Source: Myxococcota bacterium
GTDB lineage: Bacteria > Myxococcota_A > Polyangia > Polyangiales > Houyiibacteriaceae
DNA length: 58,975 bases
Direction of reading: 5' to 3'
Assembly (NCBI GenBank): GCA_020629955.1
Contig: JAHDCI010000006.1
Location: 1 to 58,975, forward strand
The notes beneath the pieces were generated by a model. That model saw nothing but the letters and a program-made list of their open reading frames with translations. It had not been told where the DNA came from and made no database searches. The translations under genes were made by a program, and so were the position numbers. Below are positions 6,499 through 48,338 of the stretch, one piece after another. The first letter of the stretch is position 1. Every line of letters begins with the position of its first letter.

Positions 6499-6540
6499 AC
6501 AAACCAAAATGCCCACCGACGGGTGGGCACTTTGGTTTGT
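6499..6540. terminator. Bidirectional intrinsic terminator-like hairpin
   Basis: ACAAACCAAAATGCCCACC-GAC-GGGTGGGCACTTTGGTTTGT; long stem between convergent genes. Confidence 0.8.
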
Positions 6541-6557: not shown

Positions 6558-7412
6558 TTAGCGGACGCCCTGCATCTCGAAGAATCGAATCGTCGACTCG
6601 ACGGCAGCTTCAAGGGCGCGCGTCACGATTTGCGCGATAGCGTCTTCGGACTGGCGAAGCGCGTCATAGTACTGCTGGCGCTCAGTCGCGTGAATCACAA
6701 CGGGGGGGTAGCCATTGTGGAGAAGGACCAGATTCAGAACCAATCGGGCGACCTTCCCGCTCTGACGGGGGAAGGGGTAGATGTGTAGAAGTTGGTAGTG
6801 CGCCTTCGAAGCCAGTCGCACGGCGTGTGTTGCCCGCTTGGTTTCCGCTGCGTTCATCCACTGAACCAGGTTTCGCATGCGGTACGAGATTTTCTCCGGA
6901 GGGGCGATCTCGTGGAAATAGAGCTTATGAAGGGGGACGTCCCGCCGGTAAGTCGGGCTCGCGCGACCTTCAAGCTCTTCGGGAGCAAGCTGCGCGTAGA
7001 GATCTTTGATCACGTCGAGGCTGACGTTAAGGCGTTTCTTCTTCGCGAGGCGTCGAATCGTGTCAATCGCGCTCTTGTGATTCCGAATTTCGTCGTAGAC
7101 CGGCAACAAGGAAGCGTCCTCCGGGACGTCTTCGAGGATCGCGGCCCGAAGCTCATCCTCTCGATACGCGACGCCCTCAAGCGCGCTATCGTGGTAAATC
7201 CACGACATATCGAGCGCTTGCATGAACTCGTCGCTCAGCTGGGTGGGAGCGGCTTTTTGCAACTCATGTAGCCGCGCGACGCGTGACTCCAGGCTATCGC
7301 CTTGAAGTTGTTGAACCACTCCCTCTCTCCTTCTTCGGTATCTTGGATTCCCAAGCGATTGGCGACGTGTGACCGATTTGATCCTGCCAAGTCTTCTCCC
7401 GGAAGGGGTCAC
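6558..7412 (-). CDS. Fic-fold protein with degenerate catalytic motif
   Basis: HIYPFPRQSGKVARLVLNLVLLHNGYPP aligns with the Fic motif HPFxDGNGRxAR; DSALEG resembles the class II inhibitory motif. Start codon uncertain. Confidence 0.75.
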   Translation of the reverse strand: MTPSGRRLGRIKSVTRRQSLGNPRYRRRREGVVQQLQGDSLESRVARLHELQKAAPTQLSDEFMQALDMSWIYHDSALEGVAYREDELRAAILEDVPEDASLLPVYDEIRNHKSAIDTIRRLAKKKRLNVSLDVIKDLYAQLAPEELEGRASPTYRRDVPLHKLYFHEIAPPEKISYRMRNLVQWMNAAETKRATHAVRLASKAHYQLLHIYPFPRQSGKVARLVLNLVLLHNGYPPVVIHATERQQYYDALRQSEDAIAQIVTRALEAAVESTIRFFEMQGVR

Positions 7413-7514: not shown

Positions 7515-8051
7515 TTACGGAATGAGGCTCTCAAGAACGGCTGCGATAGCTTCTTCGTCCGCGACACCGCGCTCAACCATTCGAATTTCGCCCTCGCGTC
7601 CGATCACAAAGAGCGTTGGCAGGGCTTGAACATCGAACGCGCTTTGTGCGGAGCCGTCCGGATCGTGAAGACTCGGAAACTCAAATCCAAACGCCTGGAA
7701 ACGCGCGCGGAGCAGACTCGGGTCGTCCGATTCGACGTTTACCCCATAGAAGCGAACATCGCCGGCGAAGCGACGCGAGAGCCGGTTCAGAATGGGCACC
7801 GAACGTCGACATGGCGGACACCAACTCGCCCAAAAGTCGAGCACCACGACCTCACCTCGTAGGTTCCCGAGGTCCACGCGGTCTCCTGCGCCTTCGCCGG
7901 CTGCGATCGGGGCGACAAGGCCGGGCGCTTCTCGGTTGCATCCCTGGCGAGGCACCACTCCGAAAAGCACCACGATCGCAAATCCGAGGACCGCCCCAAG
8001 CCAGGGGGCGAGGCGCTTCAGATCCGCGCTCATGCTAGAGGATTCAGACAA
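7515..8051 (-). CDS. TlpA/ResA-like thiol-disulfide oxidoreductase
   Basis: N-terminal TM helix; DFWASWCPPCRRSVPILN thioredoxin motif; ALPTLFVIGREGEI. Confidence 0.85.
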   Translation of the reverse strand: MSESSSMSADLKRLAPWLGAVLGFAIVVLFGVVPRQGCNREAPGLVAPIAAGEGAGDRVDLGNLRGEVVVLDFWASWCPPCRRSVPILNRLSRRFAGDVRFYGVNVESDDPSLLRARFQAFGFEFPSLHDPDGSAQSAFDVQALPTLFVIGREGEIRMVERGVADEEAIAAVLESLIP

Positions 8052-17540: not shown

Positions 17541-19952
17541 ATGAAGGTTCCTTCTTCCACGTCTCGGGACGCTCCTCGCTTTGATCTTATCGTTGAACGA
17601 AGCGCAGCAAAGCTTCGGCTGCGGACGGCGATCGATGCGGAATATGTGCGCATCTCGCGTATGGAAGCGGAGTGTGAGCTCTCGTCGGGGCCGCTCGTAT
17701 TGCGTGGCGATGTTCGGCGGTTTCGAACGCGTCAAACGCAGCTACGCAGTCTACGGGTTGAGGTCAAAGCCAACGCTCTTTCGGTGCATGCTCACGAACT
17801 CGGAGTCGCGCTGTTTGTTGATTCAATGGGAATGTTCGAAGGAAAGCCCTTTGTCCATCTCAGTGTGCAAGATGAAGTCGGAACGCTCTTTGTTGCGTTC
17901 GACATCATCCCGATGTTTCGAGATCTTCTTTTTCGCATTCGCGCGCTCGACGCGTTCGATGGGTCTCTTTCAGCCTTGCGCCGCCTTCGACGCGTGGGGC
18001 AGAAGCTCGGTATCCCTTTCGATGGGGAGCACGATGTTTTTCGGTGGCGCGACCCGGTTCGTAGCCTGCTCCTCCGCGCGCTGACGCCTCACGGCTGGCG
18101 AGTTCCAGATGCCCGGGGCGCGAACCTTCAGCTTCAGGAGATGCCCTCCGGACTTGCGCTCCTCGGCGAGTGGGAGGGCGTGGAAGACGCGCAGACTTCC
18201 CCTTCGCTCGAGATGTCTCTTGGTTCTTCCGTTTCGAAAGTTCCTCCTTCAACCCGCTTCTTCGTTGCGCTTGAGAGTGCAAATTCGGCGGTCGAAGCGT
18301 ATCTCGACGCAGCGTCGAAGATGCAGCATTCGGCTTGGCTGCAAGCGGAGGCATACGAGAGAGCGCTCGATATCGTGCCGATCGGGCATCCTGACCGCGG
18401 GGCGTTTGCCGCGTTTGCGCTCTCGCGCTTCCCGGATAGTCAGATGGACGCTCGGCGCCTGCTCGACCGTTTGGTGGCGGAGCACGATCCGGCGGCGCTT
18501 GAGCTCGCAGATGCGATTCTGGCAGGACCGCTGCCGCGGGTCAGTCGGGGGGAACTTGCGGCGCGTGCGGTCGTCGGTGTGCTGCACGGAACGGGTTTCG
18601 GTCGCGACCGTACGCGAGGTTGGCTTCGTGTCGCCTTTGAACGATTAAAGTCACTCAGCGAAGCCGCGAGACGGCTAGCTCCCGAAGCGCCTCATTCCAT
18701 TGCGGCTTCCGCGCACTGTTTGCAGATCGACGGTGACCTGGATGGTGCCGCGCGCGCCTTTGTGGAAGCCGCCGATCGGCTATCGAGCGACCAATCGAAG
18801 CTTGCGGGAACTTGGCGCCTCCGGGCCGCTCGCTTGATTCGGCGATACCAAGGGAGCGGACCGGCGGAGGTCGTTCTTCGACGTGCGCGTCTCGAGCTTG
18901 GAGATGAGCCTGAGTTGCTCGTGGAGCTTGCGGAGACGCTGGCGGATATCGGGCGAGAGGACGAGGCGGAGGAAACCTACGGTTTGCTCCTTCGGGATGG
19001 CGGTCGTCGAGGCAGTACCAGCCCTGCCCATCGCGAGGCGTTGCTGTCGGCGGCGCGCCATCATACCGAGCGAGGCAATCCTCACCGGGCCCGCGCGTTC
19101 TTGACTGCGGCGGGTGAACCCATGCTTGGGTTTTCAACGACAAGCCCGGGGCAGTTGCTCTTACCTTCACTCTCCGAAGAGATCGCGCTCTCCGAAGAGT
19201 TCGCTAGAGGCGATGATGAGGAGGATAGGAACCGCCCGTCGACCTCCGTTCGGGAGACTTCCGAATCCTCCGGCGGTTTTTCTCGGGAGATTGATCCCGA
19301 CGACTTTGGTGACCACCTCGAAAGCGGCGAGTACGTTTTTGCGTCCGAATCGGATGTTGAGAGCGATGAGCTTTCGCTTGAGGTGGCCAAGGATACCTCC
19401 GGGAGTCAGGCTCCCCCGCCGCTACCGAGCGAACCTTCCTCTAGCTCGCCAAAGACCCGCATTTTTTCGGCGGGTGCGGGTCCGCGCTCGGACCTTTCGG
19501 AAAGTGGGGAACTCTCCATCGATGAGAGCTCGCCGCTCGTCCCTGAAACCGAAGACGTGCGATCTCAGAGTGAACAGAGCCAAGATGCGGGGCTTTTGGA
19601 GGATGAGTTCGAGATTGAATCCGATGCTCATCAGCGACCTCTCTTCGATCCAACGAGCACTCACTCGACGGTGATGAGTCGTGGCGACACCTCGTATCCT
19701 CCTCCTCCCCCGGCGCCTCAGGTCACGCTGGTTTCGGTGGCCGACGACGAGCTTCGAGAGCTTCTCAGTATCGCTCGAGAGTGCGCTGAGCCTGGCGCAT
19801 TCTTGGAAGGTGCGCTGGAGGGTGTTTATCAAGAAGGTGACGCGCGCGGGGTGGAACGAATCCTTGCGGTACTAGACCGAATTGAGCCCTTCGACGGACA
19901 GGAGGCGCTGGCGGCGAAGGCCGATAAGCTCCTTTCGCTCTTGCGGCCATGA
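17541..19952 (+). CDS. Large TPR-like/hypothetical protein
   Basis: 803-aa ORF with helical repeat-like middle and acidic/Ser-rich C-terminal half; 4-nt overlap with the next gene. Confidence 0.65.
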   Translation: MKVPSSTSRDAPRFDLIVERSAAKLRLRTAIDAEYVRISRMEAECELSSGPLVLRGDVRRFRTRQTQLRSLRVEVKANALSVHAHELGVALFVDSMGMFEGKPFVHLSVQDEVGTLFVAFDIIPMFRDLLFRIRALDAFDGSLSALRRLRRVGQKLGIPFDGEHDVFRWRDPVRSLLLRALTPHGWRVPDARGANLQLQEMPSGLALLGEWEGVEDAQTSPSLEMSLGSSVSKVPPSTRFFVALESANSAVEAYLDAASKMQHSAWLQAEAYERALDIVPIGHPDRGAFAAFALSRFPDSQMDARRLLDRLVAEHDPAALELADAILAGPLPRVSRGELAARAVVGVLHGTGFGRDRTRGWLRVAFERLKSLSEAARRLAPEAPHSIAASAHCLQIDGDLDGAARAFVEAADRLSSDQSKLAGTWRLRAARLIRRYQGSGPAEVVLRRARLELGDEPELLVELAETLADIGREDEAEETYGLLLRDGGRRGSTSPAHREALLSAARHHTERGNPHRARAFLTAAGEPMLGFSTTSPGQLLLPSLSEEIALSEEFARGDDEEDRNRPSTSVRETSESSGGFSREIDPDDFGDHLESGEYVFASESDVESDELSLEVAKDTSGSQAPPPLPSEPSSSSPKTRIFSAGAGPRSDLSESGELSIDESSPLVPETEDVRSQSEQSQDAGLLEDEFEIESDAHQRPLFDPTSTHSTVMSRGDTSYPPPPPAPQVTLVSVADDELRELLSIARECAEPGAFLEGALEGVYQEGDARGVERILAVLDRIEPFDGQEALAAKADKLLSLLRP

Positions 19953-30376: not shown

Positions 30377-31393
30377 TTATTCGCCAGGGAATTCGCAGAG
30401 AAACGGCAGCGTTTGGGAGGTCGACGAATCACGCCAGCCATAGCTGAGCGTGAATCGAAGTGACGCGGCACGGGGTCGCCGGCTCTCATTCGGTTCGCCA
30501 GCCGCCCAATTCTCGAACGAGAACGCCGCGCCGGAAGCCCACTCAAAGCCCATCCCGCGGTCGAGGAGACCGATCCATGTGTCGGAGACGGAGAACCGAC
30601 TCAGCAACAATTCGATCGCTCGCTGTTCGCCGGAAGTCTCGATGGAGACCAGGTGGCCGCGAGCATTTTCGCAGAACCTCTGGCTCTCCTCGTACGTTCT
30701 CGGTTCCTGGCACCACGCGTACTGCGCTCCGCCGACTTCAAAGCGAAAACAGCAATCTCGCTCGTCGACTTCGCCGTCGCAGTCGTTATCGGCTCCATCG
30801 CTACATTGCTCAACGGTAGAAGTCGGGGAGGGGCGGCACATCCCAATATCGCCGGACATCGAACAGATGCGGATGCCCGGGCACGCTCCGACAACGCACG
30901 CCGGGTCGAAATCTTCGTCGATTGCGCCGTCACAATCGTCATCGCGACCGTCGCAATCATCCGAGGCGGCCACATCTCTGGCGCGGCAACGTACGGAACC
31001 CGACTCGCATATCGTGATCCCCTCACACATACCTTCTGCTCCGGTGGTGCAGGGCGCTGCTCGATACTCTTCGTCGATCGCTCCGTCGCAATCATCATCG
31101 ATGCCATCGCAAGAGAGATCTCGACCGTCACATCGTGACGCGTCCTCGAAAGCGCTATCCGGCAGCACATCGGCGGAGGCGTCTCCAGAAGCGCCCGAGC
31201 TGTCTGGCGTTTCGCGATCCGGAGGGATGTCGAAGGCGGTATCCTGGGGCGCGTCTGCAACTGCCCCATCGTTGGTCGAGCTGTCCGGCGCGCTCGCGTC
31301 AAACTGCAATTCCTGAACCGAGCATGCGCTTAGCAGAAGAACGAGCGCGGCGTTGAGCCATCCGCGAGGAACACTTCGCCTATTCGCAGACAT
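30377..31393 (-). CDS. Lipoprotein with MopE-type repeats and C-type lectin-like domain
   Basis: MSANRRSVPRGWLNAALVLLLSACS lipobox; repeats CDGIDDDCDGAIDE; C-terminal YEESQRFCENARGHLVSIET...WIGLLDRG...FENWAAGEPN...FLCEF. Confidence 0.8.
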   Translation of the reverse strand: MSANRRSVPRGWLNAALVLLLSACSVQELQFDASAPDSSTNDGAVADAPQDTAFDIPPDRETPDSSGASGDASADVLPDSAFEDASRCDGRDLSCDGIDDDCDGAIDEEYRAAPCTTGAEGMCEGITICESGSVRCRARDVAASDDCDGRDDDCDGAIDEDFDPACVVGACPGIRICSMSGDIGMCRPSPTSTVEQCSDGADNDCDGEVDERDCCFRFEVGGAQYAWCQEPRTYEESQRFCENARGHLVSIETSGEQRAIELLLSRFSVSDTWIGLLDRGMGFEWASGAAFSFENWAAGEPNESRRPRAASLRFTLSYGWRDSSTSQTLPFLCEFPGE

Positions 31394-32585
31394 AGGGTCG
31401 CGTCGCGGAGCGCCGCTGGTCGAACCAAGTGTAGTTGCTGCCGCCATCACGCATTCTCGCGGCGCGTGGTCGACTCGCGTTCGGGGTCTCTCCCCAGCGG
31501 GTGAACTCGGTGTCGGATCCGGAGGTCCATTGCCAGCCGCCGCTGGTATCTTCGTAATAGCCAATCCACGTATCCGGCGTTTCAAATCGAGTGAACACAT
31601 CTCTCAAGAACACGTGCTCGGCTTCGCTTTCGACCGTCGCTAGATGCCGGCCAACGCTGGCGCAGCTCGCCTCCGCATTCACGTGAGTTCGTGCGGTTCC
31701 GCACCAGATGTATCGGTCAGCATCGCCGTCGGGACCAAAGTAGAAGCAACATTCGCTCTCATCGGTATCCCCGTCGCAATCGTTGTCCAAACCGTCCGCG
31801 CATTGCTCGAGGAAGGGAGAGGGACCTGCCAAAACACACGATGAGGCGCTTCCGTCCGAGCAGGTTCGAATTCCCGAGCAGACACCGATGCTGCAGTTCC
31901 CGTCGAAGTCCTCGTCGACTTCTCCGTCGCAGTCCTCGTCTCCATCGCCGCAGTCATCTGCGTCAGGTTCGCTCGGAGAGACGCACGCGGTCTCGGAAAG
32001 CTCTGAGCACGTGCGCGTGCCCGCACCGCACGCGGTCGTACAGGAGGCGTCGAAATCTTCATCGATTCGCCCGTCGCAGTCGTTGTCGTTTCCGTCGCAG
32101 CCGTCGGTGGGCGCAGGTGAATTCGGTCGGCAGAAGACCATTCCTTCTTCGCAGACGCGGACGCCCATACAAAAATCGTCCGCACCGGTGGTGCAGGGCG
32201 CTGTTGGATAATCTTCATCAATTCCTTCGTCGCAGTCGTCGTCCACGCCATCGCAGGTCATATCGAGCGCGGTACAGACGCGACCATCCGGCGCGTCCAC
32301 GGTACTGTCTTCGGGTGCGTCAACTGGCGCGTCGACCGATACGTCATCTGGTGCATCGATTGGCGCGTCGATCGATACGTCATCTGGTGCATCGACGGGA
32401 ACATCGGGAGCGACGTCTTCTAGAGGGCCATCATCGCTGACGTCCGGAAGATCGCTGTCCTCGCTCGCGTCGAGGACGCCGCCGTCGCCGCGCTGTGTCA
32501 ACGGCGGATGGGAAACAGAACAAGCGCTGAGTGAAAACAGGCACATCCCCAACAAAACGGCAGATCGTAAGCGAACACACATCAC
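31380..32585 (-). CDS. Lipoprotein with MopE-type repeats and C-type lectin-like domain (paralog)
   Basis: FSLSACSVSHP lipobox; CDGVDDDCDEGIDE repeats; ASCASVGRHLATVESEAEHVFL...WIGYYED...FTRWGETPN...YVCE. Overlaps the downstream paralog start by 14 bp. Confidence 0.8.
   Translation of the reverse strand: MMCVRLRSAVLLGMCLFSLSACSVSHPPLTQRGDGGVLDASEDSDLPDVSDDGPLEDVAPDVPVDAPDDVSIDAPIDAPDDVSVDAPVDAPEDSTVDAPDGRVCTALDMTCDGVDDDCDEGIDEDYPTAPCTTGADDFCMGVRVCEEGMVFCRPNSPAPTDGCDGNDNDCDGRIDEDFDASCTTACGAGTRTCSELSETACVSPSEPDADDCGDGDEDCDGEVDEDFDGNCSIGVCSGIRTCSDGSASSCVLAGPSPFLEQCADGLDNDCDGDTDESECCFYFGPDGDADRYIWCGTARTHVNAEASCASVGRHLATVESEAEHVFLRDVFTRFETPDTWIGYYEDTSGGWQWTSGSDTEFTRWGETPNASRPRAARMRDGGSNYTWFDQRRSATRPYVCE
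32290..32397 (-). repeat. 36-bp tandem repeat (about 3 units) encoding the DAPxDVSxDAPx linker
   Basis: Units at 32290, 32326 and 32362; the last two are nearly identical (GGCGCGTCGAyCGATACGTCATCTGGTGCATCGAyk). Confidence 0.8.
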
Positions 32586-32728: not shown

Positions 32729-34345
32729 ATGGGGCCCATAACGATCCTCCGAAGAAGCCTGCTCACTTCGTTTGGCTTAGGCGTTGCGACGTACGCGGCG
32801 GTGATGTTGATTCCCTGTTTCGGGCTAGGCTTTTTTCTCTTCGGAGCGATTGCGACCAACATGGTGCGCACTCATTTCAAAGCCGCACTCGGGCATGCGG
32901 CACCGATCGATTTTGCCTCCACGATTCAGTTCGGTTGGCTCTCCATCTTGGTCGTCGCCGTCGGCGCGGTCTTTTTGAACGGCCTGAACTCGTATCACCT
33001 TGGACCGGCGACGGCGCTGAGCTTACCGCCGGTCTCGTTTCAGATTCTTGCCGGCATCCTTCTTTTTCTCGTGTTGGGCTGGCTCTTCGCGCCCTTTGTT
33101 GTGCAGTGTCTGGTGCACGCAGACCCTCGTCGGGCCGAAGGGTACGCCGACAATCTTGGTCTCGCATACACCGTCACTCGCCGAATTCCATGGTTTGAGC
33201 GGATCGTCCCGATCGGGGTTCTCGGGCTCTTCTTTCTGCTTCCGGTCGTCGCCTACGAGTACGACAAAGATGCCGGTATGGTGTTCGCCGTGGGCGGGGC
33301 TGGGCTCCTCGTTCCTATCGTCAGCGCGGTCTCGGTTGCAACCTATCTGCGCTATCGAATTCCCGAAGGGGCGGGCGAGCCAGAAGCCCTCGAGCGCGGG
33401 CCAAGTGTGATGGGGTTGATGATGTTCTGCGCGCTTTCCACCCTGACCGTGATCGGGTTGAGCGCTTATGCCGCCGCGTGCCCGACGCCCTTGCCCTCCG
33501 TCTCGGGGTGTACCAACGCACGCAGTTGGCATTTTCCCGAGGGACATCGCGAGCTTCGCCTTGGAGACGTTTTGATCACGGCGGAGGACCGAGGCGTTCG
33601 GGTAAGTACTTCCGACGGGGGCGGCGCGGGCTACTTCGCGACGGGCGAATCTCCGAGCCTTTTTCTATGCGAAGGAATGGCGGAAGGTGAGCACGACGTG
33701 CTCGTTGGCAATACGTACGTGACCGGGAACTTCCGCGACGAAGGCGGATATTTTGCGGGACGTATCCTTCGCGTCGATGAACGCGGGGTCCGCCGGGACG
33801 ATGGCCTGGTCGCTCGGATTGGTGAGAAGTTCAAACTGGGATTGCTCTTTCTCCTCGGTTTGATCTTCTTTTGGGCGTTTGCCGCCCGCGCGTTTGTCTA
33901 TCGTGCTGCTGCGCGACAGCTCGGTGCGCTTGAGCCGGCGACGCTTGGCGTTCTTGACGGTAGCAAGCGTCTACTCGAGGGACAGCTTCGCGGCGGTGAG
34001 ATTGTCCGGGAAGGTCGAAAGGTGAGTTTCGCTGGTGCCACGCTCGAGGGCCCCGTTTCCTTATCGTTTGGTGATGCGATGATGCGTGTGACGGGGGATG
34101 TTGAGGCACTGAAGGAAAACCCAACCCTTTGCGTGGAGGGAAGCTTTCAGCCCGCGCCGGAGAGCTTTCGCGCTTCAGCGCGTGTCGAGTTGCCGGCCGA
34201 CGCGAAGGTCCATATTGGCGCTCGAAAAGAGGCCTTACGATGGCGGATACGGCGTTCGCATCAGATTCTGCTCTTCGCGCTCGTGCCTTTGCTCCTCTGC
34301 GGGGTTGGGGCGATCTTGAGCTTTTTGGCCTGTGAGCTTTGGTGA
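32729..34345 (+). CDS. Hypothetical multi-pass membrane protein
   Basis: MGPITILRRSLLTSFGLGVATYAAVMLIPCFGLGFFLF...; N-terminal TM cluster, C-terminal TM pairs. Confidence 0.65.
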   Translation: MGPITILRRSLLTSFGLGVATYAAVMLIPCFGLGFFLFGAIATNMVRTHFKAALGHAAPIDFASTIQFGWLSILVVAVGAVFLNGLNSYHLGPATALSLPPVSFQILAGILLFLVLGWLFAPFVVQCLVHADPRRAEGYADNLGLAYTVTRRIPWFERIVPIGVLGLFFLLPVVAYEYDKDAGMVFAVGGAGLLVPIVSAVSVATYLRYRIPEGAGEPEALERGPSVMGLMMFCALSTLTVIGLSAYAAACPTPLPSVSGCTNARSWHFPEGHRELRLGDVLITAEDRGVRVSTSDGGGAGYFATGESPSLFLCEGMAEGEHDVLVGNTYVTGNFRDEGGYFAGRILRVDERGVRRDDGLVARIGEKFKLGLLFLLGLIFFWAFAARAFVYRAAARQLGALEPATLGVLDGSKRLLEGQLRGGEIVREGRKVSFAGATLEGPVSLSFGDAMMRVTGDVEALKENPTLCVEGSFQPAPESFRASARVELPADAKVHIGARKEALRWRIRRSHQILLFALVPLLLCGVGAILSFLACELW

Positions 34346-34393
34346 CGCTCGCTGGAGTGGCGAGATGGCCTTCGAGATCGTAGGCCAGTCTTG

Positions 34394-35584
34394 ATGGTCT
34401 CTATCGTTCCGACGCGCCGAGGCGATGCGACTGAAGCCGTTCGCCGGACGCTCATCGAGATTGATCTCGACGCGCTTTCGAACAACCTCGCGATCCTTCA
34501 GCGTCGAACGCAGGCGGGGATTGTCGCTGTCGTGAAGGCGAATGCCTACGGACATGGCGCACGCCGGGTGGGGCTTCAAATGCAGCGTCATGGCGCAGCC
34601 GGTCTCGCGGTCGCCCTCGCCGAAGAAGGACTCGATCTGAGAGACGCTGGGGTACGCATACCGATCCTCGTCCTGAACGGAGTTTACGGCGGCGCACATC
34701 GCGAAATTTTGGAGCGCAAGCTGACGCCGGTGGTCTATCGCCTTGAGGATGTCGCGGCGTTCCACACCGTCGTGAGACCGGGAGAGGAGCCCGCAAAGGT
34801 TCATCTGAAAGTGGATACGGGCATGGGGCGCCTTGGGGTCCCTTTGCGTGAGCTCGCGGTGTTTCTCGGCGAGCTCGATAAGTACCCGTCGGTCTCGATC
34901 CGCGGGGTGATGACGCACTTCGCGAGCGCGGATGATGATCTCGATTTTACCCACCAACAGCTCGCGCGCTTTCACGAAGCAATCGCGTTGATTCGAAGTT
35001 ATGGGCATGAGCCGAGCTGTTCCCACGTGGGCAATTCCGCTGCGCTCTTTCATGTTCGTGATTCGCATCTCGACTGGATCCGCTGCGGGACGGCGATTTA
35101 TGGTGACGCGGGATTTCCGGGTGGCCCTGATTTGGTGGGGGCGATGCGCTGGACGACGACAATCGCCGACATTCGCACGCTTGAGCCGGGAGAGAGCGCG
35201 GGCTACTCGCGAAGTTTCGTCGCGACCGAACGCTGCCGGGTCGCGACCGTCCCGGTGGGGTACGCCGACGGCTACCTCCGCGCGCACTCTCGCGCGCACG
35301 GGGTCGCCGAGCCCAAGGTCTTTGGCAAGGGTGAAGTGCTCGTTGGAGGCGTACGTTGTCCGGTCGCGGGAAATGTGTCGATGGACCTGACGGCGATTGA
35401 TATTAGCGCGTGCCCCAGAGCCCAAGTGGGTGACGAGGTGGTTTTGCTTGGGCCTCAAGGCGAAGATGAGATTCGGGTCAGGGAACTTGCCCAGAGCGCG
35501 CGGGTATTGCCTTACGAGATATGGACTTCGATCTCCGAACGGGTACCGCGTGTCTACCGCCTCTCTTCCATTAGCCCCAAATAG
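34394..35584 (+). CDS. alr: Alanine racemase
   Basis: IAVVKANAYGHGA-type PLP motif (VAVVKANAYGHGA); VHLKVDTGMGRLGVP; RCGTAIYGD; GYADGYLRA. Confidence 0.9.
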   Translation: MVSIVPTRRGDATEAVRRTLIEIDLDALSNNLAILQRRTQAGIVAVVKANAYGHGARRVGLQMQRHGAAGLAVALAEEGLDLRDAGVRIPILVLNGVYGGAHREILERKLTPVVYRLEDVAAFHTVVRPGEEPAKVHLKVDTGMGRLGVPLRELAVFLGELDKYPSVSIRGVMTHFASADDDLDFTHQQLARFHEAIALIRSYGHEPSCSHVGNSAALFHVRDSHLDWIRCGTAIYGDAGFPGGPDLVGAMRWTTTIADIRTLEPGESAGYSRSFVATERCRVATVPVGYADGYLRAHSRAHGVAEPKVFGKGEVLVGGVRCPVAGNVSMDLTAIDISACPRAQVGDEVVLLGPQGEDEIRVRELAQSARVLPYEIWTSISERVPRVYRLSSISPK

Positions 35585-35662
35585 GAGAACGAGAACTCCG
35601 CTCGCGGGACTCTCGAAGCGAAACGGTTTAGGATATTTACCCGTTTGGGTTTGTTTGTCCGC

Positions 35663-36874
35663 ATGATCGTTTTCAAAACAAAGGCCTATTTTACGATTTG
35701 GATGTGTATCTCGCTTAGCGGATGCACCATCCTCTACGATCCGGATTCGCTGCGAGTTCAGGGCGATGCCGCACCGGTGGATGGCTCGATCGTAGATAGC
35801 TCGACGGTAGACGGGGCGCTGGATGGCTCGCTTGAGGATGCTGCGCCGATGGATGCAAACGTGCCTGACGTTGCGCCTCCTGATGTCGGTTTCGGTGACG
35901 CCGCGATTGGCGACGCCGCGATCGACGCTCCCGACGCAACGCCCGATGCGGGCATCGTTGAACGGCAGCCGGTGGGCAGGCGCGGCACCCGGGACATTCG
36001 CACGATCGACATCACGACGGTCCGGGGGAATCCGGTCATTGTTTACGATACGATCCTCCGTTTCGACGGAGATGGAGATGGCGCCGACGACCTTCACGAT
36101 ATTGTTCGATTCGAGCCGCTGGAAACCGAGACGTTGCTCTCGCCCAGTACATCCAGCGAAGTTTCCCATCCGCGTATCAGCGTAGACGGCGAGGTGATCG
36201 CCTATCAGACTGCGAACGGTGCCGATGTACGTGGCCCTCGGGGAGCACGAAACCTGCCGTGCCCGCTCGGTTGTGGTTCCCTGCCGAACCTCATCGAACT
36301 TCCTTCCGGGACGTCCCTCTTTATCGTCGACAACGACGGGCAGCTGCGTGTCATTGATCCCGCGCCGGAAACGGACGACGTCACCATTTCGGGCCTTGGT
36401 ATCGAAGCGCTGTGGATCGGTTCCAGCGCAGGGTTCGCCTACCGAGTGGCGCCGAATCATCTCCGCGTTGCCCAGTACGACGGCGCCGGGGTGCGTAGCG
36501 CAGGAGTCGGCACAGGTCTGGGTGCTTTTCATCTCGGCACCGGGCCGGAAGACTTTTCTACGTTTGCGTTTACGAATCTAGAGGGAACCTATGTCCGGCA
36601 GCCCTCCGGTCAGACGCGGATTGGGAATCCTGGACAAGTGCTCGATGCCGTCAATCACGCGGGGCAAGTCGTGGTTCTCTACCGGCAAAATTCTTCAGAG
36701 CTCTGGCTCATTGTACTTGGCGGAGATGGCGCCGTTCGACCCGTCGTCATTACAGAAATGCTGAGGTCCGGAACCCACGATGTGGCCGCGCTGAGCCCGG
36801 ACGGAACCCACTTCGCGTATGTCGAACAAGACGGCACGGCGTGGTGGGACACGGTGACCCGTTGGTCAGATTAG
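35663..36874 (+). CDS. Lipoprotein with D/A-rich linker, beta-propeller-like
   Basis: MCISLSGCTILYDPDSL lipobox; C-terminal ALSPDGTHFAYVEQDGTAWW. Confidence 0.6.
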   Translation: MIVFKTKAYFTIWMCISLSGCTILYDPDSLRVQGDAAPVDGSIVDSSTVDGALDGSLEDAAPMDANVPDVAPPDVGFGDAAIGDAAIDAPDATPDAGIVERQPVGRRGTRDIRTIDITTVRGNPVIVYDTILRFDGDGDGADDLHDIVRFEPLETETLLSPSTSSEVSHPRISVDGEVIAYQTANGADVRGPRGARNLPCPLGCGSLPNLIELPSGTSLFIVDNDGQLRVIDPAPETDDVTISGLGIEALWIGSSAGFAYRVAPNHLRVAQYDGAGVRSAGVGTGLGAFHLGTGPEDFSTFAFTNLEGTYVRQPSGQTRIGNPGQVLDAVNHAGQVVVLYRQNSSELWLIVLGGDGAVRPVVITEMLRSGTHDVAALSPDGTHFAYVEQDGTAWWDTVTRWSD

Positions 36875-42262: not shown

Positions 42263-42422
42263 TTCGTGCCGGGTTCAGATCGATGGAAGGGACGGTCTTT
42301 CAGAGCGCCGACCCGAGCTTCGACAGGCGAACGACATGCCGAGTATCTCGAAGGAAGAGCGAGGCTCGGTTCGGCGTTTCTGGCGGTAGAGGGCCCTTTT
42401 CGCGACTTGAACCACGCACTAG
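42263..42422 (+). repeat. Dispersed palindromic element, copy E
   Basis: TTCGTGCCGGGTTCAGATCGATGGAAGGG...CGCGACTTGAACCACGCACTAG. Confidence 0.85.
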
Positions 42423-45142
42423 CCGCCCCAGGGTTGTGCGGGGGAGTAGCTGGGCCCCGAGCCGTTCGCTGGCGGCGGACCGAGGTTCACCGGTGGTGAG
42501 GGTGGCAGCTCTTCCATTTCCGCGGGTTCCTCCGCGGCAGTTGGTTCTGTTTCCGCTTCGGTCACCACTTCCGCATCTGTTTCCGTTTCCGCCACTCCTC
42601 GCTCGTCCGTCTCATCGAGCGTTTCCCGCTGCGGGGCTGGAGCTTGAGCGGCGGTTCTCATTTCGGTGACGCTTCGTCTTGCTCGGGGGCGGGGAGCTAC
42701 CGCGGCGCGCTCTCGCTGGGGGAGGCGACCGCCGTCGGCGAGCGTCACGGCCCATGCGGCGATCGCGGCAGCGCGATCTCGCGCTCGAAGACTGGCGAAG
42801 CGTGCCACGCTATCTTCAAGTTTCTGAACGAGCGAAGGCGCATCCATCTCTCGGGCGATTTCGAGCGCCTCCTGAATCGCCCTGCTTCCTTCTTCGAGCT
42901 TGCCTTGCTGCCAACGCGCGAGCGCGAGACCACTTAGGATTTCAACGTAGCGTTGGCTCCGCAGCCCCCAGCGCCGTTGGTCTTCGCGTTGAACGCTCTG
43001 CAGAAGTCGTTCGGCCTCTTCCGGACGCTCTAGCGCCAAAAGTGCGAACGCCTCGTTAAAGCGTGCGAGGGATTGGTGCCCATGCTCAAGCTCGTCGTAG
43101 AGCTGGGCTGAACGCTGAAAGTGCACGAGCGCATCATCGAGCTCGCCGCTCGCCAGCGCGAGAAGACCGAGGCTATTGGTCGTGAGCGCTCGCTGCGCGC
43201 TTGGCCCCTCCGCGAGGCAGGCGAGCGCCAATTGATACTCTGCCTTCGCGGCATCGGACTCGCCCATATTGCGAAGGACGCCCGCGATATTGTGGTGATG
43301 ACGCGCCGCCTGCGGGCCGGCTCCGGCGAGGCGCAGTGCCTGTCGATGCGCTGCGAGTGCGTCCTCGAAGTTCCTCTCGAGGCGGGCTGCGTTCCCGGCG
43401 GCGATGAGCCGTTCTTCGGTCTGAACCCAAGGGTCCCCTTCGAGCACCGCGAGCAGGGGGCGAGCCGCGGAGGCGTCCCCTGCTTGAATCCGCAACAGTG
43501 CGCGAACGAAGCGCGCTTTCGAACGAAGCGGGATCGCATCGCTCCGTTCGATCGGCACCTCGGCTCGGCGTAGTGCTGCTTCTGCTTCTTCGAAGCGTCC
43601 CCGGCTCCCGAGCAAGCGCGCCTCCTCCAGGTAGACTTCCGCGGTCCACACCTCACCGGATGCCGAAGAGAGGCGGCTCGCAGCGTGCAGCGCTTGTTCG
43701 GCCCCTTCGAAATCCGCGCGCTCTCGCCTGACGCTCGAGAGGTTCAGATTCGACCAAAGCGCAAGCTCCCCCTCCGCTTCCGGGCTCTCGCCTCGCAGGA
43801 GCGCTTGCACGATATTCGAATCTCTTCGAAGCGTTTCAAGATTGACCCGCGCCAACCGCGTCATCTGCGTATTCGAGACCTCCAGCTCCGACCATGCTCC
43901 CGCGACCGCGACCTCTTGCTCAAGCCATCGCTCGCGTTCCTCGGTGGGCAAGCTCTCGCATTCGGCCAGACGAGTTCGCTCCCACTCTGCGCTCAGCGTT
44001 GGGTTCTGAAATGCGCTTGCCTGACACTCGAGAGGTGGGGGCTCTGTCGTTTCAGGAGCTTCTTGTGCGCCCCTCGTCATCACGACGCCGGCCGCGATGA
44101 GCCCGGCTCCGGCAATCATCATTATCGCCAGCGGTGCGCGATTTCTGGATTCATCTGCAATGTCCTCACGGCGGTCGAGCGAGTCTCGAACAGCGCGTTC
44201 AAAGGCATCGATCGAGTGGTAGCGACTCTGGGGATCCGTCGCGAAGCCGCGCCTTAGGGCTTCGAGCGTGTTTTCCGATAGCGCTGCGTTGGTTCCGCGC
44301 GGAGCTTGATCGTGGGCCGCGCGCAACTCGGCGATTGTGGCGCCACGAAAAGGGCGGGACCCCACGAGCAGCTCCCAGCCGAGTACGGCAAGCGCGAACT
44401 GGTCCGAGCGCGCGTCTGCCTTTAAGCCCTCCCAAAGTTCAGGCGCCATGTAGGCGGGCGTGCCCATCAAAGCACCCGTTCGCGTACGAAGAGGTGCGTC
44501 CTCCGCGAACGATTGCACTGCGGGCGACGGATCAGAGCCCTCCGTATCCAGTCCGACCAAACCAAAGTCGCTTAGCTTCGCGACCTCGCCGCACATCAGA
44601 ACATTGTCCGGTTTGATGTCGCGGTGGATCAGCCCGGTCTCGTGTGCCGCGCGAAGGCCTGCGCAAACTTCAAAGAAGGCCCGGACGCGTGCGTTCAGGC
44701 TCGGGGAGCGCTCCATCCACTCTCGAAGTGTTTCGTCGCCACGCTCCATCACAAAGAAGAGATGCTCTTCGGTTCTCCCGAACTCATGAAGGGTGATGAC
44801 GTTTGGATGGGAGACCGACGCGGTCGCGATGGCTTCTCGTTCGAGGCGCGGGCTATTCGCCTCTTCGCGCATCAGCTTGATGGCGACCTGTCGCCTGAGT
44901 TCGGGGTCCTCGCCAGCAAATACGACGCCCATCGCCCCCTGACCGAGTTCCCCCTTGAGTTGAAAGCGCGAGATGGTGTCTCCCACTTGAAAACCGACCG
45001 GCTCGGGATGACAGAGCAAAACGATCGCTTCGCGACAAAGATCGCAGGAATCGATGTGTTCGTCGATCGTCTTCGCGCGTGCCCCGGAGCGTTCGCCTTC
45101 CACAAACGCAAGCAGTTCAAAATCGTCAGGACATGGGTTCAT
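42419..45142 (-). CDS. Serine/threonine protein kinase with N-terminal anti-sigma-type zinc finger and TPR C-terminal region
   Basis: HIDSCDLCREAI (H-x3-C-x2-C); GELGQGAMGVVFAGED, HRDIKPDNVLM, SDFGLVG; TM helix, then TPR-like repeats. Confidence 0.87.
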   Translation of the reverse strand: MNPCPDDFELLAFVEGERSGARAKTIDEHIDSCDLCREAIVLLCHPEPVGFQVGDTISRFQLKGELGQGAMGVVFAGEDPELRRQVAIKLMREEANSPRLEREAIATASVSHPNVITLHEFGRTEEHLFFVMERGDETLREWMERSPSLNARVRAFFEVCAGLRAAHETGLIHRDIKPDNVLMCGEVAKLSDFGLVGLDTEGSDPSPAVQSFAEDAPLRTRTGALMGTPAYMAPELWEGLKADARSDQFALAVLGWELLVGSRPFRGATIAELRAAHDQAPRGTNAALSENTLEALRRGFATDPQSRYHSIDAFERAVRDSLDRREDIADESRNRAPLAIMMIAGAGLIAAGVVMTRGAQEAPETTEPPPLECQASAFQNPTLSAEWERTRLAECESLPTEERERWLEQEVAVAGAWSELEVSNTQMTRLARVNLETLRRDSNIVQALLRGESPEAEGELALWSNLNLSSVRRERADFEGAEQALHAASRLSSASGEVWTAEVYLEEARLLGSRGRFEEAEAALRRAEVPIERSDAIPLRSKARFVRALLRIQAGDASAARPLLAVLEGDPWVQTEERLIAAGNAARLERNFEDALAAHRQALRLAGAGPQAARHHHNIAGVLRNMGESDAAKAEYQLALACLAEGPSAQRALTTNSLGLLALASGELDDALVHFQRSAQLYDELEHGHQSLARFNEAFALLALERPEEAERLLQSVQREDQRRWGLRSQRYVEILSGLALARWQQGKLEEGSRAIQEALEIAREMDAPSLVQKLEDSVARFASLRARDRAAAIAAWAVTLADGGRLPQRERAAVAPRPRARRSVTEMRTAAQAPAPQRETLDETDERGVAETETDAEVVTEAETEPTAAEEPAEMEELPPSPPVNLGPPPANGSGPSYSPAQPWGG

Positions 45143-46441: not shown

Positions 46442-46697
46442 GACTTTGGCCTTTCAAAAGGTGTTCATGATCCGAACGCGCGGAATCCCACGCCGGCGCA
46501 TAAAAAAATCATCGGGCGTGAAAAGCGGTTTGAGAGAACGGGAAGTTCGCTGAAAACACTGAAAAAAGCATCGTCGCGAGGCTTAGATACCCCTTTCGAA
46601 TCTCTTCGCGAAGGCCGCTCAGAGCATGTCTTCCCCGTGGGAAGGTCTCGCCGCGCTTCCAGAACGTTCGAACGCGAGGTATCCTCTGCGAGATTTC

Positions 46698-48338
46698 ATG
46701 GCGACGATCACGATCATCAGCCCGGACGGGCGGCTTGAGCGAGAGCTTGGCGGTCACAACACGCTCGGCCGGCATCCGAGCAACACACATCAGGTGCTCG
46801 ATAAGATCGTTTCCAAGGAGCACTGCCATATCGATTTGGTCGAAGGACGGTACATTCTTCGAGACTACGGATCGTTAAACGGAACCTTCGTGAACGGCGA
46901 ACGGGTCTCCGAGGTGGCGTTGAATCCTGGCGATGAGATCAAGATGGGTTCAACGCGCATCATTTTCGACGCTGACGCTGCGGCAACCCGTCAGCAACAG
47001 GTCGCGGCCGCGCCGGCCGGAGGCGGTCTTCCTCCAGGGTTCCGGCCCGGGATGATGAACTCCAAGGTCACCATCGCACCGGGTGTCGTGGAGAGCCACA
47101 TCCGGACGAAGCTGGCGCCGCTGCTCGAACAGAACTTTATGCCGGCCCACATGGTCCAAGACCCGGCGGCGCTACAGCGTGATTACGAAAAGCTCCGCGC
47201 GAGCTACGAGCTATCCCAGGCGATTGGTGGCGAGCTCGATGTGGACCGGCTGCTTGCAAAGATTCTCGACGCGGCGTTCTCTCTCCTCTCCGCAGACCGA
47301 GGCGTGATTCTGCTCTACGATGAGGAGAAGGAACTCAAGCCCCGCTGCGTTCGTACTCGTAACCCCAAGGCCGACGGCGAAGAGGTGATGCTCTCGACGA
47401 CGATTATCGAAGAGGTGCTGAGGGATAAAGCGGCCGTACTCTCCAGCGACGCTTCGGTCGACTCTCGTTTTCAGGGGGCTCACTCGATCATCATGCAGGG
47501 CATTCGCTCTTCGATGGCGGTGCCGCTCCTTCATGGCGGCGAGGTGTTTGGCATCATGCTTTTGGATTCGCAGATTGCTGCGAACGCGTTCACCGAGAAG
47601 GACCTGCAGCTCTTTCAGAACGTCGCAAACCAGGCAGCCATTGCGATTCAGAACTCGCTTTTCGCGCAGAAGCTCGAACAGGAAGCGATTACGCGAGAGC
47701 GTTTTCAGCGTTTGCTATCGCCCGCCATCGCCGAGCAGGTCGTGAACGGCAACGTGGAAGTGAAGAAGGGCGGCGAGCTTCGCGACACGACCGTGCTCTT
47801 TAGCGATATCCGCGGATTTACGTCGATGAGCGAGAACATGCGCCCGCAAGAAGTCGTCGATATGCTCAACGACTACTTCGAGCTCATGGTTGAGATCATC
47901 TTCGACAACGAAGGTACGCTCGACAAGTTCGTCGGGGACGAGATCATGGCGCTCTTTGGGGCGCCGGTCGCACACGATGACGATCCCCTTCGAGCGGTCC
48001 GGACGGGGCTGACGATGCTTCAGGTCCTCGAGACAGGATTTAATGCCCCTCGGCGCGTGCAAGGGCTGCCGGAACTCCAAATCGGGATCGGGATTAACAG
48101 CGGTGAGTGCCTCGCGGGGTATCTCGGCAGCAGCAAAGCGCTCGAGTATACCGTGATCGGCGATACGGTAAATACGGGGGCGCGGCTCTGCTCGCTCGCG
48201 GAAGCTGGGCAGTGCCTGATTAGTGAAGCGACGTACCAGGCCGTGAAGGACCATTTTGACGTCGTCGAGTTGCCGATGCAGCAAGTCAAAGGAAAGCGAC
48301 TCGCGCTGAAGGTTTATAACGTCGTTGGCTTTCGTTGA
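46698..48338 (+). CDS. FHA-GAF-class III adenylate/guanylate cyclase
   Basis: FHA: LGRHPSNTHQVLDKIVSKEHCHI...LNGTFVNG; GAF region; cyclase VLFSDIRGFTSMSE, DKFVGDEIMALFGAP, VIGDTVNTGARL. Confidence 0.9.
   Translation: MATITIISPDGRLERELGGHNTLGRHPSNTHQVLDKIVSKEHCHIDLVEGRYILRDYGSLNGTFVNGERVSEVALNPGDEIKMGSTRIIFDADAAATRQQQVAAAPAGGGLPPGFRPGMMNSKVTIAPGVVESHIRTKLAPLLEQNFMPAHMVQDPAALQRDYEKLRASYELSQAIGGELDVDRLLAKILDAAFSLLSADRGVILLYDEEKELKPRCVRTRNPKADGEEVMLSTTIIEEVLRDKAAVLSSDASVDSRFQGAHSIIMQGIRSSMAVPLLHGGEVFGIMLLDSQIAANAFTEKDLQLFQNVANQAAIAIQNSLFAQKLEQEAITRERFQRLLSPAIAEQVVNGNVEVKKGGELRDTTVLFSDIRGFTSMSENMRPQEVVDMLNDYFELMVEIIFDNEGTLDKFVGDEIMALFGAPVAHDDDPLRAVRTGLTMLQVLETGFNAPRRVQGLPELQIGIGINSGECLAGYLGSSKALEYTVIGDTVNTGARLCSLAEAGQCLISEATYQAVKDHFDVVELPMQQVKGKRLALKVYNVVGFR

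Follow-up and report, generated by a model that had tools for sequence, protein, structure and literature searches.

A Fic-fold protein family of Myxococcota with a degenerate catalytic motif and a retained inhibitory helix: a likely FICD-like pseudoenzyme

Background

Few Fic proteins with degenerate motifs have been described; most of those found were effectors directed at hosts or resembled toxins, and several retained part of the motif. By both sequence and fold, the closest solved structure to the protein considered here (hereafter pseudo-Fic) is that of FICD (HYPE), a metazoan class II AMPylase/de-AMPylase whose inhibitory helix is likewise N-terminal. The glutamate of the inhibitory clamp and the second arginine of the motif are kept in pseudo-Fic, whereas His363, Asp367, Asn369 and Arg371 of FICD are all replaced. 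Furthermore, pseudo-Fic (253 aa) comprises just the Fic part, has no TPR repeats and displays an aspartate instead of the threonine of the inhibitory motif. In FICD (PMC6826200, PMC12974487) and EfFIC (PMC6408439), the glutamate of the inhibitory helix and the last arginine of the motif form a bridge that blocks productive ATP binding.

Other described proteins share part of these features. The FIC domain of BepC from Bartonella works non-catalytically, by protein binding, and its metal position is occupied by a basic residue (PMC7842960). However, BepC is an injected effector that keeps the histidine, the GNGR stretch and both arginines (PMC7842960), whereas the pseudo-Fic family has lost the motif, is widespread and is inherited vertically. 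In AvrB, a Fido rhamnosyltransferase, the acidic residue is also replaced by arginine and the asparagine by serine, and the histidine is missing (PMC2686095); pseudo-Fic differs by lacking the inserted upper lobe, by a basic residue that is not conserved within the family and by keeping the inhibitory helix, whereas AvrB is reported to lack autoinhibition (PMC12974487). Khater and Mohanty (2015) reported a Doc clade (D2) and a Fic clade (F3) with a His-to-Gln change or without some motif residues (PMC4454073). Clade D2 kept the acid and NKR, unlike pseudo-Fic, while clade F3 displayed a threonine for the second glycine, no last arginine and a modified inhibitory helix (PMC4454073), which is the reverse of what pseudo-Fic retained. 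Finally, Fic2 from Campylobacter fetus also has a degenerate core motif, but it keeps the histidine, is toxic through it and belongs to a toxin-antitoxin pair (PMC5651007). Nothing on the pseudo-Fic family was found in open-licence papers.

The gene and its flanks

The window is the whole stretch of 58,975 nucleotides that was analysed here, from a Myxococcota bacterium (assembly GCA_020629955.1, contig JAHDCI010000006.1). An earlier note made from its letters had placed a minus-strand ORF at positions 6558-7412. The ORF was found to exist, but a start at 7412 is too far upstream; the GTG at 7319 is the better start, since it is preceded by AAGGAG and since the homology of close orthologs begins at its residue (Table 1). 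Most close orthologs seem to start with GTG or TTG and not ATG, which might mean low translation.

Table 1. Coordinates of the pseudo-Fic gene, its sequence motifs and its flanking features in the window.
Feature	Position	Strand	Description and evidence
Pseudo-Fic CDS	6558..7319	-	253 aa, GTG start, stop codon 6560-6558; Pfam Fic, AlphaFold2/Foldseek to FICD
Ribosome-binding site AAGGAG	7327..7332	-	7 nt ahead of the GTG start; sequence, scored
Inhibitory-helix segment W40-IYHDSAL-E48-G49	7173..7202	-	FICD alignment; Glu48 opposite FICD Glu234
Flap-equivalent segment Y124-R125-RDVPLHKLYFHEI	6906..6950	-	Conservation; R125 invariant, Y134 nearly invariant
Degenerate Fic motif Y181-PFPRQSGKVA-R192	6744..6779	-	Replaces HxFx(D/E)GNGRxxR; alignment to FICD
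Inverted repeat, long, T-rich ends	6500..6539	-	Sequence; core 6510-6529 called on + strand only
TlpA-like thioredoxin-family protein	7515..8051	-	Upstream neighbour, 195-nt gap; Pfam Redoxin/AhpC-TSA

Judging from its sequence, the inverted repeat, which separates the pseudo-Fic gene from a convergent pyridine-nucleotide oxidoreductase gene, may serve as a bidirectional terminator. A thioredoxin-family gene was also encountered upstream of pseudo-Fic in the family of the window's genome and in close ones.

In FicTA modules, a small adjacent antitoxin gene provides the inhibitory helix. No antitoxin gene was found beside pseudo-Fic, the 195-nt upstream gap containing no separate ORF of at least 60 aa, and the helix is present in cis; a FicTA toxin-antitoxin module was rejected on both grounds. 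The window's genome (82 % complete) displayed no other Fic match.

Fic fold

The assignment to the Fic fold, proposed earlier from the letters, was confirmed by sequence and by modelling. The window protein matched Pfam Fic PF02661 with 43.9 bits (E 4.4e-11; cut-off 24 bits), and its top PDB sequence match was FICD, with 9e-20 for the single protein and 8e-39 for a profile of 59 orthologs. The AlphaFold2 model was of high quality (pLDDT 94.6, pTM 0.91) and its top Foldseek matches were human FICD structures (E ~1e-11, TM 0.76-0.84). A family member from elsewhere in the phylum, only ~26 % identical to the window protein, gave a comparable result (pLDDT 96, TM ~0.8 to FICD).

No NCBIfam model fitted, the scores being 31 of 450 bits for XopAC and 22 of 124 for mob_myst_B. 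PADLOC matches were restricted to general Fic-type models (SoFic, PDC-S04), PHROGs matches were families of unknown function, and a viral structure library yielded weak matches, some of them called Fic-like.

Degenerate catalytic motif

In the alignment to FICD, the window's YPFPRQSGKVAR stood opposite HPFIDGNGRTSR. All four substitutions reported previously were recovered (His to Y181, Asp to R185, Asn to S187 and the first Arg to K189); G188 and the second arginine, R192, were retained. The two places where the earlier note had suggested looking for a canonical HxFx(D/E)GNGR, namely the remainder of the protein and its orthologs, contained none, the canonical motif being kept in 0 of 165 orthologs. 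A sequencing or frame error behind the odd motif was rejected, as a similar motif recurs in independent assemblies.

A degenerate motif of this kind was encountered in orthologs from ~70 % down to <30 % identity, which speaks against a chance feature. A basic residue (R/K) at position 185 combined with S187 was displayed by only 66 of the 165. Among His, acid, Asn and first Arg, none was retained in 123 of 165 orthologs, one in 31, two in 11, and three or four in 0. The His position was almost exclusively aromatic (Y/F/W in 160; Y76, F73, W11, L3, H1, S1), and phenylalanine and tryptophan are unable to serve as general base. The Asn position was occupied by serine in 127 of 165 orthologs. At the position of the metal-binding acid, lysine or arginine was commonest among the 165; this residue was mostly T, N, Q or V in family f12, which belongs to the same order as the window's genome, and E in other families.

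Two members deserve separate mention. Locus L052 (genome G007) has a histidine at the catalytic position (IHPFARHSGKLARL) together with none of the other catalytic residues, which looks like a neutral Tyr-to-His change. Locus L130 (5217-6116, minus strand) encodes a very divergent f37 member or relative with motif LWPWETGSGILAR, an ELGVEG inhibitory motif and the longest branch of the clade.

The residues for nucleotidyl transfer and de-AMPylation are thus gone across the family. In EfFIC, mutations H111A and E115A both abolish de-AMPylation, so that histidine and metal-binding acid are each required (PMC6408439). Since both are needed for de-AMPylation too, the canonical reaction is expected to run in neither direction; the loss of canonical AMPylation predicted in the earlier note agrees with the missing residues and with established Fic chemistry, which needs both. 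The label "Fic family protein" would mislead readers into expecting AMPylation.

Inhibitory helix, clamp and flap

The DSALEG stretch, previously likened to an inhibitory helix, aligned with TVAIEG of FICD, the inhibitory glutamate E48 corresponding to Glu234. In terms of the [S/T]xxxE[G/N] motif, the Ser/Thr position is an aspartate (D44) in the window protein and an aspartate or glutamate in every ortholog. An acidic residue at position 48 (E/D) was found together with R192 in all 164 orthologs in which both positions were readable, and G49 was likewise present in 164 of 164.

Ranking of 241 alignment columns by entropy separated the clamp from the former catalytic site. G49, R192 and E48 ranked 1, 3 and 12, whereas the His position ranked 58, the first Arg 114, the metal position 193 and the first motif Gly 211. 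Positions H43, D44 and Y134 were among ranks 11 to 16. The flap-equivalent segment is unlike the flap of canonical Fics; it appeared as a short coil without insertion in the AlphaFold2 model.

The best reading of this pattern is that the "lock" outlived the "engine" in the pseudo-Fic family. By alignment to FICD, Glu48 and Arg192 would form an intramolecular clamp equivalent to Glu234-Arg374. The clamp might keep the inhibitory helix in what was once the nucleotide site, either permanently or in a switchable manner, and an aromatic side chain (Y/F/W) would occupy the place of the catalytic histidine; with the helix clamped and this aromatic residue in place, ATP would not be used.

Distribution, inheritance and selection

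Among 58 related genomes, 55 had an ortholog. Within a sample of 379 genomes from the phylum, 101 of the 105 that belong to the window's class carried pseudo-Fic, as a rule in single copy; these class tallies were counted by hand from tables that do not list every match-less genome. Outside the class it was detected in ~45 genomes and was restricted to families f29, f37, f39, f48, f50 and f57. Members scored well above other Fic matches, the only exception being the divergent protein of locus L130.

In a quick tree, for which SH-aLRT was the only support, pseudo-Fics formed one clade apart from ten canonical Fics (support 100). Family labels required 21 changes on this tree, the fewest possible, indicating that inheritance was mainly vertical and that the catalytic motif was probably lost once. 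A scan of genome contigs with patterns from the single window protein returned only records consistent with myxobacteria; the named ones were mostly Myxococcota MAGs, and the closest was Sandaracinus sp. (73 % identity). Plasmid homologues were considered as possible family members and rejected: the ten matches listed were distant Fics of 26-29 % identity, and the motif was intact in three of the four that were fetched, the fourth (L134) displaying HPFVDVNGR with one Gly changed.

Pseudo-Fic is under strong purifying selection, dN/dS being 0.013-0.08 in most of the closest pairs. The median over all 314 usable pairs was 0.22, a value inflated by near-saturated synonymous sites. A monophyletic family that has shed its catalytic residues and is still constrained by purifying selection fits the description of a pseudoenzyme, a conserved homologue of an enzyme without the catalytic residues. 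The widespread, vertically inherited family and the presence of the clamp residues in every ortholog are additions beyond what the window sequence alone could tell.

Functional interpretation

We consider it reasonably likely that the gene product is a Fic pseudoenzyme, built like FICD (class II), that serves as a locked, non-catalytic binding module. In line with this, pseudo-Fic is probably a non-enzymatic module for binding or switching. The earlier note had left a choice between "regulator or binder" and "new chemistry"; the former is the better supported half, and the poor conservation of the metal position, one of the most variable columns, argues against new chemistry at the old site. 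Pseudo-Fic would then act by binding: a conserved, family-specific surface, made up of W40, H43 and D44 on the outward side of the inhibitory helix and of P129, H131, K/R132, Y134 and H136 in the flap, may dock a partner that is conserved in the cell, and the clamp may work as the switch by opening or closing. If this holds, a housekeeping-like, usually single-copy and nearly class-universal Fic pseudoenzyme would mean that the fold is worth retaining for a non-catalytic task. Pseudo-Fic also separates the role of the Glu-Arg clamp in catalysis from its role for the protein itself, which are mixed in active Fics.

A more far-reaching reading, which we hold to be possible though rather doubtful, regards pseudo-Fic as a core protein of the window's class and of several other groups of the phylum. 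The Fic fold would have been turned from an enzyme into a stand-alone switch with the Glu-Arg clamp, at first no more than a brake, as its working part, a conversion that, within this reading, probably took place once and early; a ligand or partner opening the clamp would signal to a conserved target. Alternatively, this conserved surface would perform a Fido reaction with an active centre of a kind not encountered so far.

Enzymatic explanations have a precedent in AvrB and Selenoprotein O, which were first regarded as inactive and later shown to be enzymes. Pseudo-Fic could be a metal-free transferase of the AvrB type, in which the diphosphate of a nucleotide sugar or comparable donor is held by the basic residue that took the place of the metal ligand. 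The conserved Arg and Ser that occupy the fido D/E and Asn positions in AvrB (PMC2686095) have counterparts in R185 and S187 of the window protein, AvrB transfers rhamnose independently of divalent cations (PMC10866546), and a lysine takes the metal position in BepC, which binds an ATP analogue (PMC7842960). The combination of Lys/Arg for the metal-binding acid and Ser for the Asn, as in ~40 % of orthologs, could still hold phosphates. This explanation is nevertheless unlikely, as the pair is confined to the 66 of 165 orthologs given above and the metal column ranks only 193 of 241. Moreover, the inserted upper-lobe domain of AvrB is absent from the AlphaFold2 model of the 253-aa protein, and no AvrB structure was among the 50 Foldseek matches listed.

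An enzyme with a re-sited centre, built from helix and flap residues (H43, D44, Y134, H131, H136) and the kept arginines, appears quite unlikely as well. It would account for the high conservation of H43, D44 and Y134, with D44 at the canonical Ser/Thr position, and near-invariant polar residues (H43, D44, Y134, R125, H174, R214, Y217) could indeed build a new active centre. However, several of these are common to canonical Fics and may only be structural; this may apply to H43, since FICD also has the "YH" histidine, and H131 and H136 were lost in whole branches (P/T/M and Q/L, respectively).

Pseudo-Fic might instead regulate or neutralise active Fics of the same cell, as Fic1 does for Fic2 in Campylobacter fetus, a precedent for one Fic acting on another (PMC5651007). 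Roughly half of the related genomes, or more, did contain further Fic matches, but these were patchy whereas pseudo-Fic was nearly universal. Of the 56 genomes with a Fic match, 22 had pseudo-Fic as their only one; these include the window's genome and several that are 95-100 % complete. An obligate active-Fic partner was therefore rejected, and this explanation as a whole is very improbable. That the gene is a decaying relic of a mobile fic toxin can be practically dismissed: the loss of catalytic residues fits such a relic, but the low dN/dS of most closest pairs, the open frames in orthologs and vertical transmission within the class and in further groups of the phylum all speak against it.

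Genomic context

For the binding or switching module favoured here, gene neighbourhoods offered one weak lead to a partner. ribA (GTP cyclohydrolase II) followed pseudo-Fic in the same orientation in most loci fetched from families f16, f29, f37 and f57 (L082, L083, L086, L088, L093-L097, L100-L104 and L111-L113), which represent two separate parts of the tree, and was the sole recurrent neighbour across several other families. No neighbour was common to all families among the fetched loci, and the neighbourhoods indicated no single pathway. A class-IV aminotransferase gene lay upstream in f39 and f50, while the upstream gene rsmH (mraW) of f13, f15, f16 and f20 was encoded on the opposite strand.

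Elsewhere in the window, the open frames at 17541-19952 (plus strand, 803 aa) and 34235-36532 (minus strand, 765 aa) displayed no Pfam match at 1e-5. Two adjacent ORFs of ~400 aa at 30377-32585 (minus strand) each combined a C-type lectin domain with a MopE-like metal-binding motif; the pair resembles a tandem duplication, and the listed ORFs overlap. A Ser/Thr kinase with TPR repeats (42419-45142, minus strand) was encoded near an FHA-GAF-adenylate/guanylate cyclase protein (46626-48338, plus strand).
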